IMG/VR virus record: IMGVR_UViG_3300037189_000112
Span: 1-28,634 of that record
DNA: 28,634 nucleotides
Origin: a virus
Strand: one strand, 5' to 3'
Shown piece after piece: positions 20,950 to 28,413 of the stretch. Under the pieces are notes generated by a model that made no database searches, was not told the DNA's origin, and was given only the letters and a program-made list of their open reading frames with translations. The translations under genes were made by a program, and so were the position numbers. How positions within the stretch are numbered: position 1 is the stretch's first letter; every line of letters starts with the position of its first letter.

Positions 20950-22181
20950 GTTACGTTAGCCCATTTACTGGTGACGTTGTCCAACCAACGGACGTTAGTT
21001 ACCGTGCAATTACCCTTTCTGCGAATACGCAGCTAGCATGGCCTATCAACGGCAATGCGACAGGGAACTATGCTGCTCGAATAATGGAAGTAACGGCAAC
21101 GACTACTGGTCTGACCCTTCGTATGCCGCCAGCCGACCAGACATCGGTTGGTACTGATGCCCTAATTAGGGGATTGGGAGCTAATACTTTTACGGTTGCC
21201 GATTATAACGGGAATGTAATCTGTACCGTAGCAGCTGGCGAAGCAAAATATATCTACATTACAGCTAACCCAACATCTTCTGGTACATGGGGTTTGATTT
21301 ATTTTGGTGTAGCTACAGCTAACGTAGATGCTGCAACCCTGCAGGGATACGGTATTTTAGCTCTTGGTAGCACGCTAAACCAAAGCCACCCTACTACGTT
21401 GATGACTACAGGCTATGCTTTCTCTGGCGTAGATCGTGCTCAGGTAAAGATTTGGGAAGGCGGTACGGGTACAGCTACGCTTCCTTTAGCGGGACTTTTA
21501 GGTAACAACTGGTTTACATTATTTAAAAATAACGGCACAGGCACGGTTGTTATATCAACAACTGGCGGTGAGTTAATTGATGGCAATGTATCCAAAACAT
21601 TCCAACCTTCTGAGTCAGCGCTTATTGTTTGTACTGGCACTGAATACGTAGCTATTGGTTATGGCGTTAGCACAAACTTTGTATTTACCGCATTAGTTAA
21701 GCCAGTTACAACTGGTACATATACCTTAACTCCAAGTGAGGCTGGTAACACTATTCAAGAGTATGTTGGCACATTGACTGGAAATGTAACCGTCAATTAC
21801 CCACCTACAATTAACTTGTATGTAGTTAGTAACCAGACGGTAGACAACGGCTATACGCTGACTTTGACTACTGGAATTTCTGGTAGCGCAACGGCAATTA
21901 TTCCACCGGGTCAGCAAGCTACGCTTATCTGTGATGGCACGAATATGTTGAATGCCAACACGATTTCCGCTGGTGCTACCGCTATTACGTTGATCAACGG
22001 CACTGTTGGCACTCCATCACTTAGCTTTGCGTTTGAGCCTTCTACTGGTATCTACAGAGCTGGTGCAGGCAAAATGGATATTTCTATTTTAGGCACTAAC
22101 TTAGTTGAGTTTTCATCAACTGGCATGACTGTAACTGGGACTGGTAACTTTACTGGCGGTATTTTTGGAGGCACCTTTTAA
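20946..22181 (+). CDS. Fibre-like tail protein between adaptor and nozzle genes
   Basis: This 411-residue protein is Thr/Gly/Asn-rich, has no membrane segment and is strand-rich throughout. Residues 1-120 (VSPFTGDVVQPTDVSYRAIT, then LRMPPADQTSVGTDALIRGLG) form a probable virion-attachment domain, which is a frequent start for proteins next to the adaptor gene. Later parts include WEGGTGTATLPLAGLLGN (about 170-187), FTALVKPVTTGTYTLTPSEAG (about 240-260) and an end domain with FAFEPSTGIYRAGAGKMDIS. It overlaps both neighbours (4 bases and 1 base). It is probably a tail spike or fibre anchored at the adaptor-nozzle interface, or a structural component there. Confidence 0.75.
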   Translation: MSYVSPFTGDVVQPTDVSYRAITLSANTQLAWPINGNATGNYAARIMEVTATTTGLTLRMPPADQTSVGTDALIRGLGANTFTVADYNGNVICTVAAGEAKYIYITANPTSSGTWGLIYFGVATANVDAATLQGYGILALGSTLNQSHPTTLMTTGYAFSGVDRAQVKIWEGGTGTATLPLAGLLGNNWFTLFKNNGTGTVVISTTGGELIDGNVSKTFQPSESALIVCTGTEYVAIGYGVSTNFVFTALVKPVTTGTYTLTPSEAGNTIQEYVGTLTGNVTVNYPPTINLYVVSNQTVDNGYTLTLTTGISGSATAIIPPGQQATLICDGTNMLNANTISAGATAITLINGTVGTPSLSFAFEPSTGIYRAGAGKMDISILGTNLVEFSSTGMTVTGTGNFTGGIFGGTF

Positions 22182-23986
22182 TGACTAAGAAGGTTTTCGC
22201 CCTAGATACAAAAGCTGGCATTCAGCGTGATGGTACTGTCTTTGACATGAACTTTTACACTGACGGACGTTGGGTAAGGTTTCAGCGTGGTCGTCCTCGT
22301 AAGATATTAGGCTATAGACAGATTTCTCAGGGCTTAGCAGGCATTTCTCGTGGCTTGTATGTCAACCCACAGAATGGCTTTAACTTAGTTTTTAACGGCT
22401 ATGCAGACGGTTTGCAGGTCATTCCTATTACTAACACTGGCTCAGGCTCTGGTGTTACAGACTTCACCCTATCAAACTTTACAGCTAACTCAGCTAACTT
22501 ATGGCAGTTTGATACATTTTTTGATACCACTGGCGCAGGAGTTGAGAGCTTAGTTGCTCATCCGGGTCAGAATTTAAACGACATTTCAAGCAGCACTAAT
22601 ACTCCTGTTTTAATTGGCAACGTATCTGGCTCAAGTATGGCTGCTATGTTTGATGGCGCTACGCCTATTTCAGTTAGCGGTGGAGTCGTTGTCCTGCATC
22701 CCTATGTATTTGTGTTTGGCAATAATGGATTGATTAAAAATTGTGCAGCTGGTGACCCTACTGACTGGACAGGCCCTGATGCTAACGAGACTAACGTAGC
22801 AGGCTCAAAGATTGTGCAAGGATTACCAGTCCGAGGTGGTTCTAACTCACCTTCAGGATTATTCTGGTCGCTAGACTCTTTGATCCGTGTTTCATACAAC
22901 CCTACAACGATTACAACTGGCGCTACTACAACGACCTTGTTCTGGCGTTATGACATCATTTCTAGCCAGTCTTCTATTCTTTCTTCCCAGTCTGTCATTG
23001 AATATGACGGAATCTATTACTGGTGCGGAGTTGATAGATTTTTGATGTACAACGGTGTTGTAAAAGAAATACCGAACACCATGAACCAGAACTACTTTTT
23101 TGATAACCTGAACTATGCTCAGCGTCAGAAAGTATATGCAACTAAAGTTCCTCGTTATGGTGAGATTTGGTGGTTCTATCCTAAAGGAACAGCAACTGAA
23201 TGTACTGACGCAATTATTTATAACGTGCGTGAGCAAACTTGGTATGACGCAGGTGAGGCTTTAGGAGCTCGTAGATCAGCGGGTTACTTCTCGCAGGTAT
23301 TCCACTACCCAATCAATATGGGATGGGAGCCAGCGGCTGTAGGCGGTATTAGCACCTCTACTAGAAGCAGCGGTGGCTCTGGCTACACAAACGGCACCTA
23401 CACCTTTACATCGCTTACTGGAGGCAGTGGAACAGGCGCTGTAGCCACTATCGTGGTTTCTGGTGGTGCGGTTACTAGCTACACAATTACTAATCACGGG
23501 ACTAACTACAAGGTAGGCGATGTCCTGATTAGCAATAGCCACGGTGGTACTGGGTTCTCGATTACGGTTAACACAATATTTAGCTATATGTCTTTATGGC
23601 AACACGAGTTTGGCACAGACGAGGTAAAGAATTCATATGTCAATGCGATTGAAAGCTATTTCGAGACAAGCGACCTTGGGTGGGTGGCTGGTGGCCCTTC
23701 CCAAGATAGTCCTATTGGGGATAATAAGTGGCTGCATATTGAGCGTGTTGAGCCTGACTTTATCCAGTCGGGTGAGATGAGCTTATTTATTACTGGTAGA
23801 CCATATGCTCAATCGCAAGATGTAACAAGTGATCCCTATATTTTTAACCCAGATACGAATAAAATTGACATGCGTGAGCAGCGTCGTGAATTAAGAATTA
23901 GGGTTTTATCAAATGCTTCTGGCGGTGACTATCAGCTAGGTAAGTTGCTAATCAGTGCTGATATTGGTGACGTAAGAGGTTATTGA
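22181..23986 (+). CDS. Tail nozzle / DNA stabilisation protein (P22 gp10/T7 gp12-like)
   Basis: This is a 601-residue protein. The start FALDTKAGIQRDGTVFDMNF with YTDGRWVRFQRGRPRKILGY is the hallmark of this family of nozzle proteins. The body has repeated strand units with WS/FWR/W-rich turns (LYVNPQNGFNLVFNG, HPYVFVFGNNGLIKNC, SVIEYDGIYYWCGVDRFLMY, GEIWWFYPKG), as in a beta-propeller. Residues about 387-466 are an inserted Gly/Thr module (SGGSGYTNGTYTF, then GTGAVATIVVSGG and GTNYKVGDVL). The C-terminus resumes with WQHEFGTDEV, HIERVEPDF and RRELRIRVLSN. It closes the DNA channel in short-tailed phages. The stop overlaps the next ATG by one base. Confidence 0.82.
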   Translation: MTKKVFALDTKAGIQRDGTVFDMNFYTDGRWVRFQRGRPRKILGYRQISQGLAGISRGLYVNPQNGFNLVFNGYADGLQVIPITNTGSGSGVTDFTLSNFTANSANLWQFDTFFDTTGAGVESLVAHPGQNLNDISSSTNTPVLIGNVSGSSMAAMFDGATPISVSGGVVVLHPYVFVFGNNGLIKNCAAGDPTDWTGPDANETNVAGSKIVQGLPVRGGSNSPSGLFWSLDSLIRVSYNPTTITTGATTTTLFWRYDIISSQSSILSSQSVIEYDGIYYWCGVDRFLMYNGVVKEIPNTMNQNYFFDNLNYAQRQKVYATKVPRYGEIWWFYPKGTATECTDAIIYNVREQTWYDAGEALGARRSAGYFSQVFHYPINMGWEPAAVGGISTSTRSSGGSGYTNGTYTFTSLTGGSGTGAVATIVVSGGAVTSYTITNHGTNYKVGDVLISNSHGGTGFSITVNTIFSYMSLWQHEFGTDEVKNSYVNAIESYFETSDLGWVAGGPSQDSPIGDNKWLHIERVEPDFIQSGEMSLFITGRPYAQSQDVTSDPYIFNPDTNKIDMREQRRELRIRVLSNASGGDYQLGKLLISADIGDVRGY

Positions 23987-24231
23987 TGGCGGGTGTTGCT
24001 CAAGTTTATGACCCAAGAAACCACACCTTTGAATCTTGGGCATCGTTGATGTGTGAGTTGTATGCGGGGCAACAATTAGCTATTCCTGATGCTAATACTG
24101 ACTGGAAAGAGTGGGCTTCAGGATTAAAGGCAATTGATGTATTTACAAACGAGGGGATACCGGGGCCTGCCATCTTTGATGATTGGCAAGTCTGGGCAGA
24201 GGAGGTAGTAAATGCAGTTAATCCAAGATGA
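23986..24231 (+). CDS. Small hypothetical protein upstream of the acyl carrier gene
   Basis: This 81-residue acidic protein starts at ATG 23986, which overlaps the nozzle gene stop by one base. A TTG one codon upstream (23983) is unlikely to be used. It is rich in Trp: FESWASLMCELYAGQQLAIP, DWKEWASGLKAIDVF and FDDWQVWAEEVVNAVN. The sequence suggests small helices around a hydrophobic core, with no membrane segment. Proteins of this type lie after nozzle genes in aquatic phages and may be small assembly or attachment proteins. Its last 20 bases overlap the start of the acyl carrier gene in another frame. Confidence 0.7.
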   Translation: MAGVAQVYDPRNHTFESWASLMCELYAGQQLAIPDANTDWKEWASGLKAIDVFTNEGIPGPAIFDDWQVWAEEVVNAVNPR

Positions 24232-24511
24232 TGGATTTATAGAATTATTTAATGCAGTAGCAAGAGTAGCAAAGCCGATGCACCCAGATTTTAATTTGGC
24301 TAAGTCGCTTGATGATGGGTTTGTAGATATTGAAATAGATAGTCTTGATTGCTTATTAATTGTTATCTACATGTGCGAGTTGTTTGGTGTTCCTGAAGAG
24401 ATTGGAAAAGAATTTAACCCAATCAATATTAGGGAGCTGTATAACTTAATCATGGAGCACAAAACAAAAGTGCCAGAATCAATTGAAGCGGCAATTAAGG
24501 AGATCGAATGA
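24212..24511 (+). CDS. Phage acyl carrier protein
   Basis: This 99-residue acidic protein is a carrier that would hold acyl chains on a phosphopantetheine arm. The attachment site is DSLD with Ser44, in the standard place before helix 2. The usual helix pattern follows: SLDCLLIVIYMCELFGVPEEI as helix 2, then NPINIRELYNLIMEHK as helix 3-4. Its N-terminus is about 8 residues longer than in E. coli AcpP (Ser36), and it has a charged C-terminal tail (ESIEAAIKEIE). The cysteine after the DSLD motif is unusual but not disruptive. It overlaps the previous gene by 20 bases and the ketosynthase by 4 (ATGA). It would need a host phosphopantetheinyl transferase, since none is visible here. Confidence 0.9.
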   Translation: MQLIQDDGFIELFNAVARVAKPMHPDFNLAKSLDDGFVDIEIDSLDCLLIVIYMCELFGVPEEIGKEFNPINIRELYNLIMEHKTKVPESIEAAIKEIE

Positions 24512-25635
24512 TATATCTCACTCATTATCGAACTGCTTCTACTACAAATATTGAGTTAATGGATGATGTTGTATACCCACAGAGGGTGCATTGGTTTCCA
24601 GAAACTTATGCAAAGGTAGCTTCTGGCATGTTCTACGTGCCACATAAAGTAGCAGAAAAAGTTTTAGACCCGCAGCTTATGAAAAGCTTGCGTGAGAATA
24701 AAGTAGGTAAGACAGCGTTTATTTTAGCAGCTGGTAACTCTAACTTTGCAGGTGTTAGCCCTAGAGATTACAAGAGCAAGTTAACTTACACGTACAAGTT
24801 CTTGCCATTGTCTTTAACGCAGGTGTGGGCTGGTCGTATAGCGCAATTCTGTGGTGCAGATGACCACGTTGTATCAGATTCAAGTGCTTGTGCATCTAGT
24901 ATGAAAGTAATGATGGATGTGCAGACATTGATTAAGTTTTATGGGTTTGACAGGGTAATAGTTTTAACAGTTGAGGATGGTGTATCTAATTCTACTCTTG
25001 AATTCTTTGGTGAGGCTAAAGCTTCTCTAACGGCAAAAGATGAAGAGATAGGGATTAAGCCAAGTGCATTTGATAAAACGAATCATGGTTTTTACGTAGG
25101 GCAAGGTGCTGCTTTTGCAGTGTTTGATAGTGAGAGCGTGGTAGAGAGAGAGGGGAGTAAAGTTTATGCAAAATTATGCGGAGCGTATGCAGCATCGGAA
25201 AGAAGCAGTAATGCTATTGGTCAGAGGGAAGACGGGCAAGGTTTCGTTAATGCTATTGAGGCTGCCATTCGTATTGCTGGGGTGTCTAATAGCGATATTA
25301 ATATTGTCAAAACGCATGGTACAGGAACTCTGTCTAACAATATGGCAGAAGCTACAGCGCTTAATTCAACGCTGAAAGATTTTGTAGCTACATCGTATAA
25401 ACAAAAGATAGGTCATACGATGGGCGCTAGCGGTTTATTAGAGACGTTACTGTTGCTAGACGATATAAGAAGTAATGTAGTGCCAGCAATACCTAATAGG
25501 ACAGAGCACGATGAAGTTTATTTATCTGATCCTATAGAGCCGCCAAAGGGATTGATTTTAAGTTTGGCTGCAGGTATGGGTAATATTTACGGTGCTGCAA
25601 TTTTTGATGCGATTGGTGGTGATTATGTTAGTTGA
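24508..25635 (+). CDS. Beta-ketoacyl-ACP synthase (KAS I/II-like)
   Basis: This 375-residue condensing enzyme of the thiolase fold would extend acyl chains by joining acyl groups to malonyl-ACP. All catalytic positions are present: C128 in DSSACASS, H270 in KTHGTGT, and K298 and H303 in KQKIGHTMGASG. The spacing is close to that of FabF C163, H303, K335 and H340. Other family marks are a VGQGAAFAVF strand (about 197-206) and a Gly-rich AAGMGNIYGAAIF near the end, where Met357 appears to replace the FabF gatekeeper Phe. It is about 40 residues shorter than FabF, mainly at the N-terminus. AAGGAG lies 5 bases upstream of the ATG. The gene is coupled to the carrier protein by a 4-base overlap and overlaps the next gene by 11 bases. 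Confidence 0.93.
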   Translation: MIYLTHYRTASTTNIELMDDVVYPQRVHWFPETYAKVASGMFYVPHKVAEKVLDPQLMKSLRENKVGKTAFILAAGNSNFAGVSPRDYKSKLTYTYKFLPLSLTQVWAGRIAQFCGADDHVVSDSSACASSMKVMMDVQTLIKFYGFDRVIVLTVEDGVSNSTLEFFGEAKASLTAKDEEIGIKPSAFDKTNHGFYVGQGAAFAVFDSESVVEREGSKVYAKLCGAYAASERSSNAIGQREDGQGFVNAIEAAIRIAGVSNSDINIVKTHGTGTLSNNMAEATALNSTLKDFVATSYKQKIGHTMGASGLLETLLLLDDIRSNVVPAIPNRTEHDEVYLSDPIEPPKGLILSLAAGMGNIYGAAIFDAIGGDYVS

Positions 25636-26068
25636 CAGCAAAAAAACAAAGTTAGGCGTTGAGGCAATTATTGTTGCTTCAGCTGCTGAGACTGACTCTT
25701 CACATCCAATTGCAACTGCTTATGCAGCAATCGTTAAAGAGTTAAATATAAAGGGAACTATTCCACTGCAAGAGGGTAATACGCTTTTTATTATTCATCA
25801 CGTTTCAAGCAGAATTGGTTTCTTTCGAGCGCTTAACGCTGACATAGCAAAAAATTATCTTGCTAACTCTTTAGAGTTTGTTAAAGCAGCGTACAAATTA
25901 GGATATGACGAGCTTTATACAGAATTTGAAAGTCCGTCTATTTTAAACATATTTAAAGCTATTAAACGCAATCCTCCAAATGAAGATATGGAATTTGTAG
26001 CACAAGAAAAAGACGGAAAATATATTGTTACTTTATATCTTGGCCCTACTAGAGAGCGAGAAAAATAA
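25625..26068 (+). CDS. Unknown protein of the acyl carrier/ketosynthase cluster
   Basis: This 147-residue protein starts at ATG 25625, after a GGTGGTG site and 11 bases before the ketosynthase stop. Residues 11-60 have strand-helix-strand character (GVEAIIVASAAETDSSHP, GNTLFIIHHVSS). Residues 65-112 include FRALNADIAKNYLANSLEF, AAYKLGYDELYTEF and SPSILNIFKAI. The end is NPPNEDMEFVAQEKDGKY followed by a VTLYLGP strand. The mixed fold with a central helix and GYDELYTEF strand could suit an acetyltransferase-like (GNAT-like) protein, but no acetyl-CoA loop is visible. I know of relatives in aquatic phages, unnamed. The stop overlaps the next ATG by one base, so translation is linked to the large virion protein. 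Confidence 0.72.
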   Translation: MLVDSKKTKLGVEAIIVASAAETDSSHPIATAYAAIVKELNIKGTIPLQEGNTLFIIHHVSSRIGFFRALNADIAKNYLANSLEFVKAAYKLGYDELYTEFESPSILNIFKAIKRNPPNEDMEFVAQEKDGKYIVTLYLGPTREREK

Positions 26069-28413
26069 TGTCAGCTGTTGTTGATTTTGTTAAAGGTGCA
26101 GTCAATACCGTTCTTGACCTAGGTCATAAGGCGATTGATCTCGTTGTCGATACAGTTAAGGCTGTTATCGCTGACCCTCTGCCAACATTATTAATGATTG
26201 CTGGTGCTACTGTAGGGATACCTGTTCCGCTCACTGCGGCAGCGGTTACAGCCGCTAGAGGTGGAAGTTTAGAGGATATAGCTAAGTCAGCTGTAGGTGC
26301 TTATGTAGGTCAAGAAGTTGCTCCTGTTATTTCAGGATCAATTGCGCCAACTGTTGGAGGCATGATTTCTAATCAAGCAGTTGCTACTGCAGTTACAAAT
26401 GCTATTACAAGTGGCTTAGTTAATGGCACTGTATCTGCTATTCAGGGCGGGGACTTTGCTAAAGGTTTTACTGGTGGTTTTGTAGGTTCAGCTGTTGGTG
26501 CAGGGGCTAAAGAAATTATTGGTAAGCCAACGATGGATTTCGCTAAGAGCTTAGGTTTTGACGAGCAGACTGGAAAAGCGATTGTAACTGCATTGAGTTC
26601 ATCTGTAGGTAAAGGTGCTGGTGCAGCTGCTACTGGTGGTGATTTCAGTGCTGCATTTGAACGTGGTTTAGCTACCTCTGGCGTTAACTTTGCTGCTACA
26701 AAAGCATCTGATGCTATTAAAGAAACTCTAAAAAATGAGACATCATCTAATGATGCTGAGCTTAGAGCAAAGTATGAGCAAACAACAAAAATTAATCAAG
26801 ACATTCAAGCTAATGCTGCAGCTCAACAAAAAGCTGTTGATGATGCAAATGCAAGAGCAATAGCTACAAATGATAAGCAAACTGCTTTACAAAATGAAAT
26901 AAATAAATTTAATGACAATATAAAATTATCTCAAAGTGATGATCTTAGAGATAATATATATGGTCAAATGAATCAACTTTATACTGGTTATGATCCTGAA
27001 TCTGAAACGTCTTATGTTCCTCCAGAAAATGCAGCGCAATTTGCAGCATTACAAAAACAACTAAATGAAGTTTATGATGATCAAACAAGAGCAGATATAA
27101 GAGCTGATTTAGTAAAAAGAGCTGAAGATTTTACAAAAGAATATAAAGATAGCTCTGACTATGTTACTAAGCAACAAGAACAACTTAAAACTCTTCAGCA
27201 ACAACAAATAGATTTAATTAAACAATACGATCAAGTTACAAGCGGCACAAAACAAAGTGCTGCAGACTTTTTTACACAAGAAGAAAAAAATGCTGAAAGA
27301 ATAAAACAAGCTTATGACCTTAATGAGCAATACAAAACATTAACTGGTCAAGAACTTACTCCAGAAAAGCTTGTTGAATTACAAAAAGCTGATAATTTAA
27401 AAGAAGCAGCTGCTAAAGATTTAGGCTTTGATTCAGTTGAGTCAATGCAAACTGCTTTAACAATGAAGTCTCTACCAACTGATGTAGCGCCTAAGCTAGA
27501 AGGCAGAGAAGGTGAGATTGCAGGTCAGCTAGTTAAGGAAACATTAGAGGACGGCTCTGTTGTTTACTCACGTACGTTTACTGGTACGACTCCAGACGGT
27601 CAGAAATACTCATACAAAGCAACCTATGATGAAAAGAATCCTCGTGGTGTTGAGTATGAGGTTTTAAATGGTGTTTCACAAAACTATAAATCTGGAACCC
27701 CTGTAGATGTTGTATCTGGCACCGAGAGACCTAATTTTGGCGTACCTCCTGCTCAAGATACAGGCACTACTACAGAAACTAAAAAAACCGCAGCTGATTT
27801 ACAAAAAGACGCTGCTGATGCATATAACAATTTTGTTAACACTTCTGTAATAGCAACTCAAGTACCAACCCCAGAAAATGTAGATGCAGCAAATCAAGCA
27901 AAGTTAGATGCTGAGCTAAAGCAAAAGATGGCTGATGATGCTATGGGTGTAACTAATACAGGTACTACTGATACTACTGGCGCTGGCTCAACTGGCAGCA
28001 CAGATACATTAGCCCCAATTAATCAAGAAGAATTACCTGTTAAATCTAATCAAACGCTTCCTATTAGTGATAATGTTGGCAATAATGTAGTGCCAGACAA
28101 TACAACTTCTGGATTGGGTAATGTTCTTGGTGATGCGGCTAAAACTATACTTACTAGCGGTTTAACTTCTGGCACTTCTGGTACTTCTGGCAGCACTACC
28201 ACTGCGCCAACAGCTACTGCTAAGACTGCAGCGGTTGCACCAGTTGTGACTTCAGGACTTACTCCTGTAGCTAAGTCTAATACGGCTTCACCATCAATAT
28301 ATTTTGAAGCACCAAATATTATGATGACACCTGCTCAGATTGCTGAAAGAGAATCTTTTTCGCTAGGTCGCAGAATTAAACGAGGTGGATTAGCCTCAAA
28401 ACGTAAGAAATAA
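26068..28413 (+). CDS. Large putative internal virion (ejection) protein
   Basis: This is a 781-residue protein. Residues 1-30 are an amphipathic helix region (VVDFVKGAVNTVLDLGHKAI). Residues about 33-65 are hydrophobic, and residues 70-215 are Gly/Ala-rich with repeated weakly hydrophobic helices (TVGGMISNQAVATAVTNAIT). Residues about 225-460 are charged coiled coil, Gln/Lys/Glu-rich and A-rich at the DNA level. A small beta domain with YSYKATYDEKNP lies at about 490-545, and a Thr/Pro/Ala-rich linker runs from about 560. The C-terminus is strongly basic (LGRRIKRGGLASKRKK). It follows the tail genes and looks suited to membrane contact, so an internal or ejected virion protein is more likely than a tape measure. 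Confidence 0.72.
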   Translation: MSAVVDFVKGAVNTVLDLGHKAIDLVVDTVKAVIADPLPTLLMIAGATVGIPVPLTAAAVTAARGGSLEDIAKSAVGAYVGQEVAPVISGSIAPTVGGMISNQAVATAVTNAITSGLVNGTVSAIQGGDFAKGFTGGFVGSAVGAGAKEIIGKPTMDFAKSLGFDEQTGKAIVTALSSSVGKGAGAAATGGDFSAAFERGLATSGVNFAATKASDAIKETLKNETSSNDAELRAKYEQTTKINQDIQANAAAQQKAVDDANARAIATNDKQTALQNEINKFNDNIKLSQSDDLRDNIYGQMNQLYTGYDPESETSYVPPENAAQFAALQKQLNEVYDDQTRADIRADLVKRAEDFTKEYKDSSDYVTKQQEQLKTLQQQQIDLIKQYDQVTSGTKQSAADFFTQEEKNAERIKQAYDLNEQYKTLTGQELTPEKLVELQKADNLKEAAAKDLGFDSVESMQTALTMKSLPTDVAPKLEGREGEIAGQLVKETLEDGSVVYSRTFTGTTPDGQKYSYKATYDEKNPRGVEYEVLNGVSQNYKSGTPVDVVSGTERPNFGVPPAQDTGTTTETKKTAADLQKDAADAYNNFVNTSVIATQVPTPENVDAANQAKLDAELKQKMADDAMGVTNTGTTDTTGAGSTGSTDTLAPINQEELPVKSNQTLPISDNVGNNVVPDNTTSGLGNVLGDAAKTILTSGLTSGTSGTSGSTTTAPTATAKTAAVAPVVTSGLTPVAKSNTASPSIYFEAPNIMMTPAQIAERESFSLGRRIKRGGLASKRKK

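Follow-up and report, generated by a model that had tools for sequence, protein, structure and literature searches.

Organization of the locus

The window analyzed here is a whole IMG/VR virus record of 28,634 bases. It contains genes for an acyl carrier protein (ACP) and a beta-ketoacyl synthase (KS), located downstream of capsid, tail-fibre, endolysin, and nozzle genes. The locus is organized as follows.

22181..23986, plus strand: gene for the nozzle/stabilisation protein, assigned to phrog_3287, a virion structural protein (named phage stabilization protein in the relative MW202545)
23983..24231, plus strand: small conserved gene that follows the nozzle gene and borders the cargo slot on the left; ATG 23986 is an alternative start
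24212..24511, plus strand: ACP, 99 aa, with Ser44 within DSLD
24508..25635, plus strand: KS of the KAS I/II type, 375 aa, with C128, H270, K298, and H303 intact
25625..26068, plus strand: g3, 147 aa, with a GNAT fold and no canonical Q/RxxGxG/A cofactor loop
26068..28413, plus strand: long protein, 781 aa, with a hydrophobic N-terminal region and no family match

By these coordinates, successive genes from the small gene through the long gene overlap by 20, 4, 11, and 1 nt. The 11-nt overlap of KS and g3 follows from placing the g3 start at ATG 25625, which is the best candidate (147 aa); in the ORF list, the gene begins further upstream, with GTG at 25592. ACP has AGGAGG, a strong ribosome-binding site, ahead of it, and the KS site, AAGGAG, sits inside the ACP gene. 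Scans for promoters and terminators gave counts at or below the shuffled expectation. An earlier sequence-only reading of the window had claimed these ORFs and overlaps together with ACP Ser44 and KS Cys128, His270, Lys298, and His303, and direct reading of the residues found all of them in place. The ACP and KS genes are not chance ORFs, since KS matches Pfam families and the same gene order is observed in all relatives holding both genes; a misread frame is likewise ruled out by conservation and dN/dS.

The nozzle protein has a peculiarity of its own. Its residues about 385-466 (window 23330-23590) are glycine-rich, match families of baseplate and fibre proteins from other phages, and look like an inserted domain.

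Conserved order, lineage, and the variable cargo slot

A KS search of IMG/VR yielded 150 related stretches, the best 80 of which share 67-74% identity along almost their entire length, and divergent relatives were added by further searches. ACP lies directly upstream of KS in 175 further sequences, wherever the sequence reaches that far, and the 4-nt overlap is kept in 167 of the 175; the six loci without ACP start at a contig end in or near KS. Every locus with both genes has them in the order ACP-KS-g3-long protein, usually with the nozzle and small genes ahead. One example is the public phage record MW202545 (Manatee Spring), which has the same arrangement as the window and in which KS is annotated as 3-oxoacyl-ACP synthase and ACP as hypothetical. 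Another is L083 (JAGYJQ010000016.1), a contig in a Balneolaceae MAG, with the same arrangement and different upstream genes; its presence in this MAG is possibly a host hint or a binning error. A scattered auxiliary gene is ruled out by the constant order. The sequence-only reading had placed an intact ACP and KS in the late, structural operon, and the comparison of relatives, in which a scattered pair was looked for, agrees: the position does not change and the catalytic residues are kept.

The phage proteins form one clade (100/100) with long stems in a tree built from 46 phage KSs and 15 cellular ones, the cellular sample being mainly from one phylum plus E. coli. The cellular matches listed (118 genomes of one phylum, with the phage contig L083 set apart) show at most 34% identity to the phage KS. 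Relative to this cellular sample, the phage KS is neither nested among cellular homologs nor close to them, unlike what is expected for a gene of recent host origin. Both genes of the pair are under strong purifying selection, with dN/dS of 0.078 for KS and 0.091 for ACP, and the values for KS, ACP, and g3 are all about 0.08-0.09. Among the five neighbors, KS shows the highest conservation (mean identity 69%), and its distances follow those of the nozzle gene (0.84), the small gene (0.88), and ACP (0.88). The tracking of distances and the low dN/dS indicate that the pair was inherited with the virion genes and kept. The conservation and the lineage of ACP-KS are stronger than the sequence-only reading claimed.

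These data bear on the explanation that ACP and KS are simply fabF and acpP taken from a host and used as auxiliary metabolic genes to boost fatty acid synthesis. The KAS I/II type of the KS agrees with it, and phage ACPs are reported in this sense (PMC11705849, PMC5463345, PMC10152775). However, the KS belongs to a deep virus-only clade with no more than 34% identity to the cellular KSs found, was inherited with virion genes, and scores 120 against a FabF cut-off of 494. We therefore consider this explanation very unlikely.

The surroundings of the pair were surveyed in relatives picked by the nozzle gene, blind to KS: 11 carried KS, 60 did not, each of these having at least 1.2 kb of downstream sequence, and 9 were too short to tell. 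In some KS-less loci the long protein comes directly and the slot holds nothing; in others, a divergent gene of 120-150 aa lies ahead of the long protein. Six loci (L343, L346, L347, L348, L351, and L370) have a glycosyltransferase-like gene of about 315 aa directly after the small gene; that of L343 is a PF11397 glycosyltransferase (E=3.8e-54), and the five others share its start. In L324 and L336, the small gene and g3 are separated by a gene of the PF10118 family, 'predicted metal-dependent hydrolase' (E=1.5e-28 for L336, the one tested), and g3 comes next, the latter having a VDS-type N-terminus in L324. Finally, L256/L257, whose nozzle and small gene are 75 and 78% identical to those of the window, lack ACP-KS, and their small gene is followed immediately by g3.

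Thus, the site of ACP-KS is a cargo slot, and the coupling of the pair to virion genes is positional. Since most nozzle relatives hold other cargo or nothing at this site, closeness to virion genes alone is no argument for a virion role. The suggestion of the sequence-only reading that the placement favors such a role is not supported, as most nozzle relatives lack ACP-KS and g3 occurs without it. The PF11397 and PF10118 genes fit late host- or envelope-modifying cargo, and more late-acting enzymes may be sought in this slot.

Divergence of the ketosynthase and its carrier

The KS matches PF02801 (E=1.4e-16) and PF00109 (E=8.6e-10), and the two scores (61 and 39.1 bits) both exceed the curated cut-off of 20.8, making it a member of the superfamily. 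Cys128, His270, Lys298, and His303 are invariant in all 176 distinct sequences (the window plus 175 further), which rules out a degenerate, non-catalytic KS. With the FabF equivalog TIGR03150, the score is 120.5 bits, far below the curated cut-off of 493.75. The structure model is of moderate quality (pLDDT 67, pTM 0.76), and its closest structures are KasA and FabF.

The gating loops were read from an alignment of the phage KSs with E. coli FabF. The FabF gate GFGGTN is replaced by GMGN[IV]Y, with Met at the F400 position in all 174 phage sequences having that column and Tyr or Phe at the N404 position. The capping loop has its own sequence, NAIGQ, with invariant N235, G238, and Q239, and the position of FabF Asp265 is variable. 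Hence, the phage KS lacks the FabF/FabB gate of GFGG with Phe400 and Asn404, and Asp265. In FabF, the gating loops decide which acyl-ACP is admitted, and the reaction order becomes looser when Phe400 is lost (PMC7138838).

The DSL motif of ACP is present in 169 of 176 sequences, at least five of the exceptions having DSM. The window ACP gave no match to PF00550 in a profile search and no other Pfam match on its own; among its relatives, 7 of 15 match PF00550 weakly (best E 0.0031). The ACP family profile found 79 sequences of solved structures up to E=1 (best 2.7e-4), and among the structure matches listed, all 60 are ACPs or belong to larger complexes as ACP subunits. Where E. coli AcpP has Glu41, 82 of the 82 phage ACPs of the first set have a hydrophobic residue (Val, Met, Ile, or Leu). 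The replaced gating loops of KS, together with this hydrophobic position, suggest that ACP and KS are tuned to each other and are not copies of host FabF and AcpP.

Possible functions and comparison with known systems

The sequence-only reading found no companion fatty-acid enzymes beside the pair, and the same holds on a larger scale. In 24 related KS-bearing records of 49-66 kb, which have no completeness estimate and may be incomplete, there was no ACPS-type phosphopantetheinyl transferase, malonyltransferase, short-chain reductase, FabA/Z dehydratase, or 4HBT hotdog thioesterase; enzymes of these kinds hidden elsewhere in the genome were thus rejected for these records. Accordingly, activation of the carrier, and completion or transfer of the chain, must fall to the host.

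We lean, tentatively, towards a late cargo pair that makes a special acyl-ACP, passed by host enzymes to the envelope; the activation and activity of the pair, its late timing, and the destination of the acyl group are what we infer here. ACP and KS would form a two-gene, translationally coupled cassette in the variable late-operon slot, which has the tail-closure genes on one side and those of the GNAT-fold protein and the presumed ejection protein on the other. Host phosphopantetheinyl transferase and malonyl transferase would charge the phage ACP, and the phage KS, with its intact chemistry and its own substrate gate, would condense malonyl-ACP with an acyl chain. The product would be held on a carrier whose helix II differs from that of the host ACP until host enzymes finish it or hand it on to the cell envelope, so that acyl chains of the infected cell would be altered late in infection. 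Two points speak against this reading: host enzymes might use the phage ACP poorly, judging from its lack of the AcpP Glu41 contact, and the envelope need not be the target of the other cargo genes.

The lack of companion enzymes in the 24 records would also agree with interference, in which host fatty acid synthesis is slowed or misdirected by the phage ACP and KS, either through trapping of phosphopantetheine or malonyl groups or through decarboxylation of malonyl-ACP. The altered gate points the same way; Streptococcus pneumoniae FabF without its Phe400 gate gives a shunt product (PMC7138838). We nevertheless regard interference as unlikely: the genes are located among late, not early, genes, and full conservation of the tetrad and the unique gate residues over wide divergence argues for a specific reaction.

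Another scenario, which we find rather unlikely, is virion acylation. The acyl group of the pair would be put on the long presumed ejection protein by g3 or another acyltransferase, helping it to enter the membrane, as in acyl-ACP-dependent protein acylation systems. The long protein (781 aa) gave no match in family searches and, judging by position only, is probably an internal or ejection protein. It begins with an amphipathic stretch of hydrophobic character, and residue 2 is mostly Ser or Gly; this start would suit acylation, as would the constant adjacency of ACP, KS, g3, and the long protein. The g3 model (pLDDT 91) has GNATs as its top PDB matches (E 3e-4, TM about 0.5), among them the AHL synthase TofI. 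The AHL synthase family uses acyl-ACP, and by analogy with GNAT-fold TofI, g3 may accept acyl groups. Moreover, in L256, which lacks ACP-KS, 4 of the 22 conserved columns of g3 are changed, exceeding 131 of 134 g3 proteins from KS-bearing phages. Against virion acylation, g3-like genes persist in relatives without ACP-KS, which weakens the case for g3 as a dedicated partner of the pair, and g3 of KS-less L267 keeps all 22 columns. In addition, g3 has RALNAD where the canonical Q/RxxGxG/A cofactor loop belongs, and 64 of 149 long proteins have no Lys in the first 45 residues, although the target could lie elsewhere. Phage look-alikes of the g3 model include 'internal virion protein A', and the g3 family profile found no match among PDB sequences.

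In KS-carrying phages (n=149), the N-terminal 45 residues of the long protein (window 26068-26200) have a median net charge of -8, and the N-terminus has +7 in KS-less L277/L278 and -11 in KS-less L267. A KS-linked bias towards negative charge was rejected, as the acidity is seen in L267 too.

A related option is a virus-specific minimal KS-carrier synthase. The chain, unreduced or elongated in a special way, would be built on a carrier of its own and become a polyketide-like product or the acyl group of a virion protein; we give this option a low likelihood, somewhat short of improbable. The phage pair differs from the type II minimal polyketide synthase (KS, chain-length factor, and ACP) in having one KS-domain match per record in 24 of the 24 related records of 49-66 kb.

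Compared with the elongating synthases FabF and KasA, the phage KS has the same thiolase-type fold, PF00109/PF02801 domains, and Cys-His-Lys-His active site, but it is shorter, with a divergent N-terminal part and both gating loops replaced. Similarly, the phage ACP shares with bacterial type II AcpP the DSLD phosphopantetheine site, acidic character, and comparable length and spacing, and differs in the hydrophobic Glu41 position and an extra conserved C-terminal KT.EP segment. PHROG already gathers relatives of KS in phrog_35856 (E=5e-40) and of ACP in phrog_28189 (E=7e-6), both annotated as of unknown function.

In the open-licence literature searched, we found no description of the ACP-KS pair as a conserved viral lineage and no match to phage ketosynthase phrases. 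Single ACP genes of unknown role are reported in the phages R22Y, vB_EliS-R6L, and R16F (PMC11705849, PMC5463345, PMC10152775). They share with the window a phage-encoded ACP of unknown role, but belong to different phages and gene surroundings, and the accessible parts of these papers mention no KS partner. Viral fabF appears in two metagenome surveys (PMC12783922, PMC10653327). Another case is fabG-acpP-fabF in predicted Rhodobacteraceae prophages, where acpP adjoins fabF on predicted viral sequence, as in the window; however, these genes follow the E. coli order with fabG, are not described among virion genes (PMC8224337), and may be a host operon.

Lipid-related genes of phages are commonly taken to be borrowed from the host. 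In the present case, a carrier and a condensing enzyme constitute an old viral lineage that comprises at least 176 distinct sequences, was inherited together with virion genes, and has a redesigned substrate gate. If active, the pair would represent a virus-evolved step of acyl synthesis and would offer a clear test of whether phages reshape the envelope or virion acylation late in infection.
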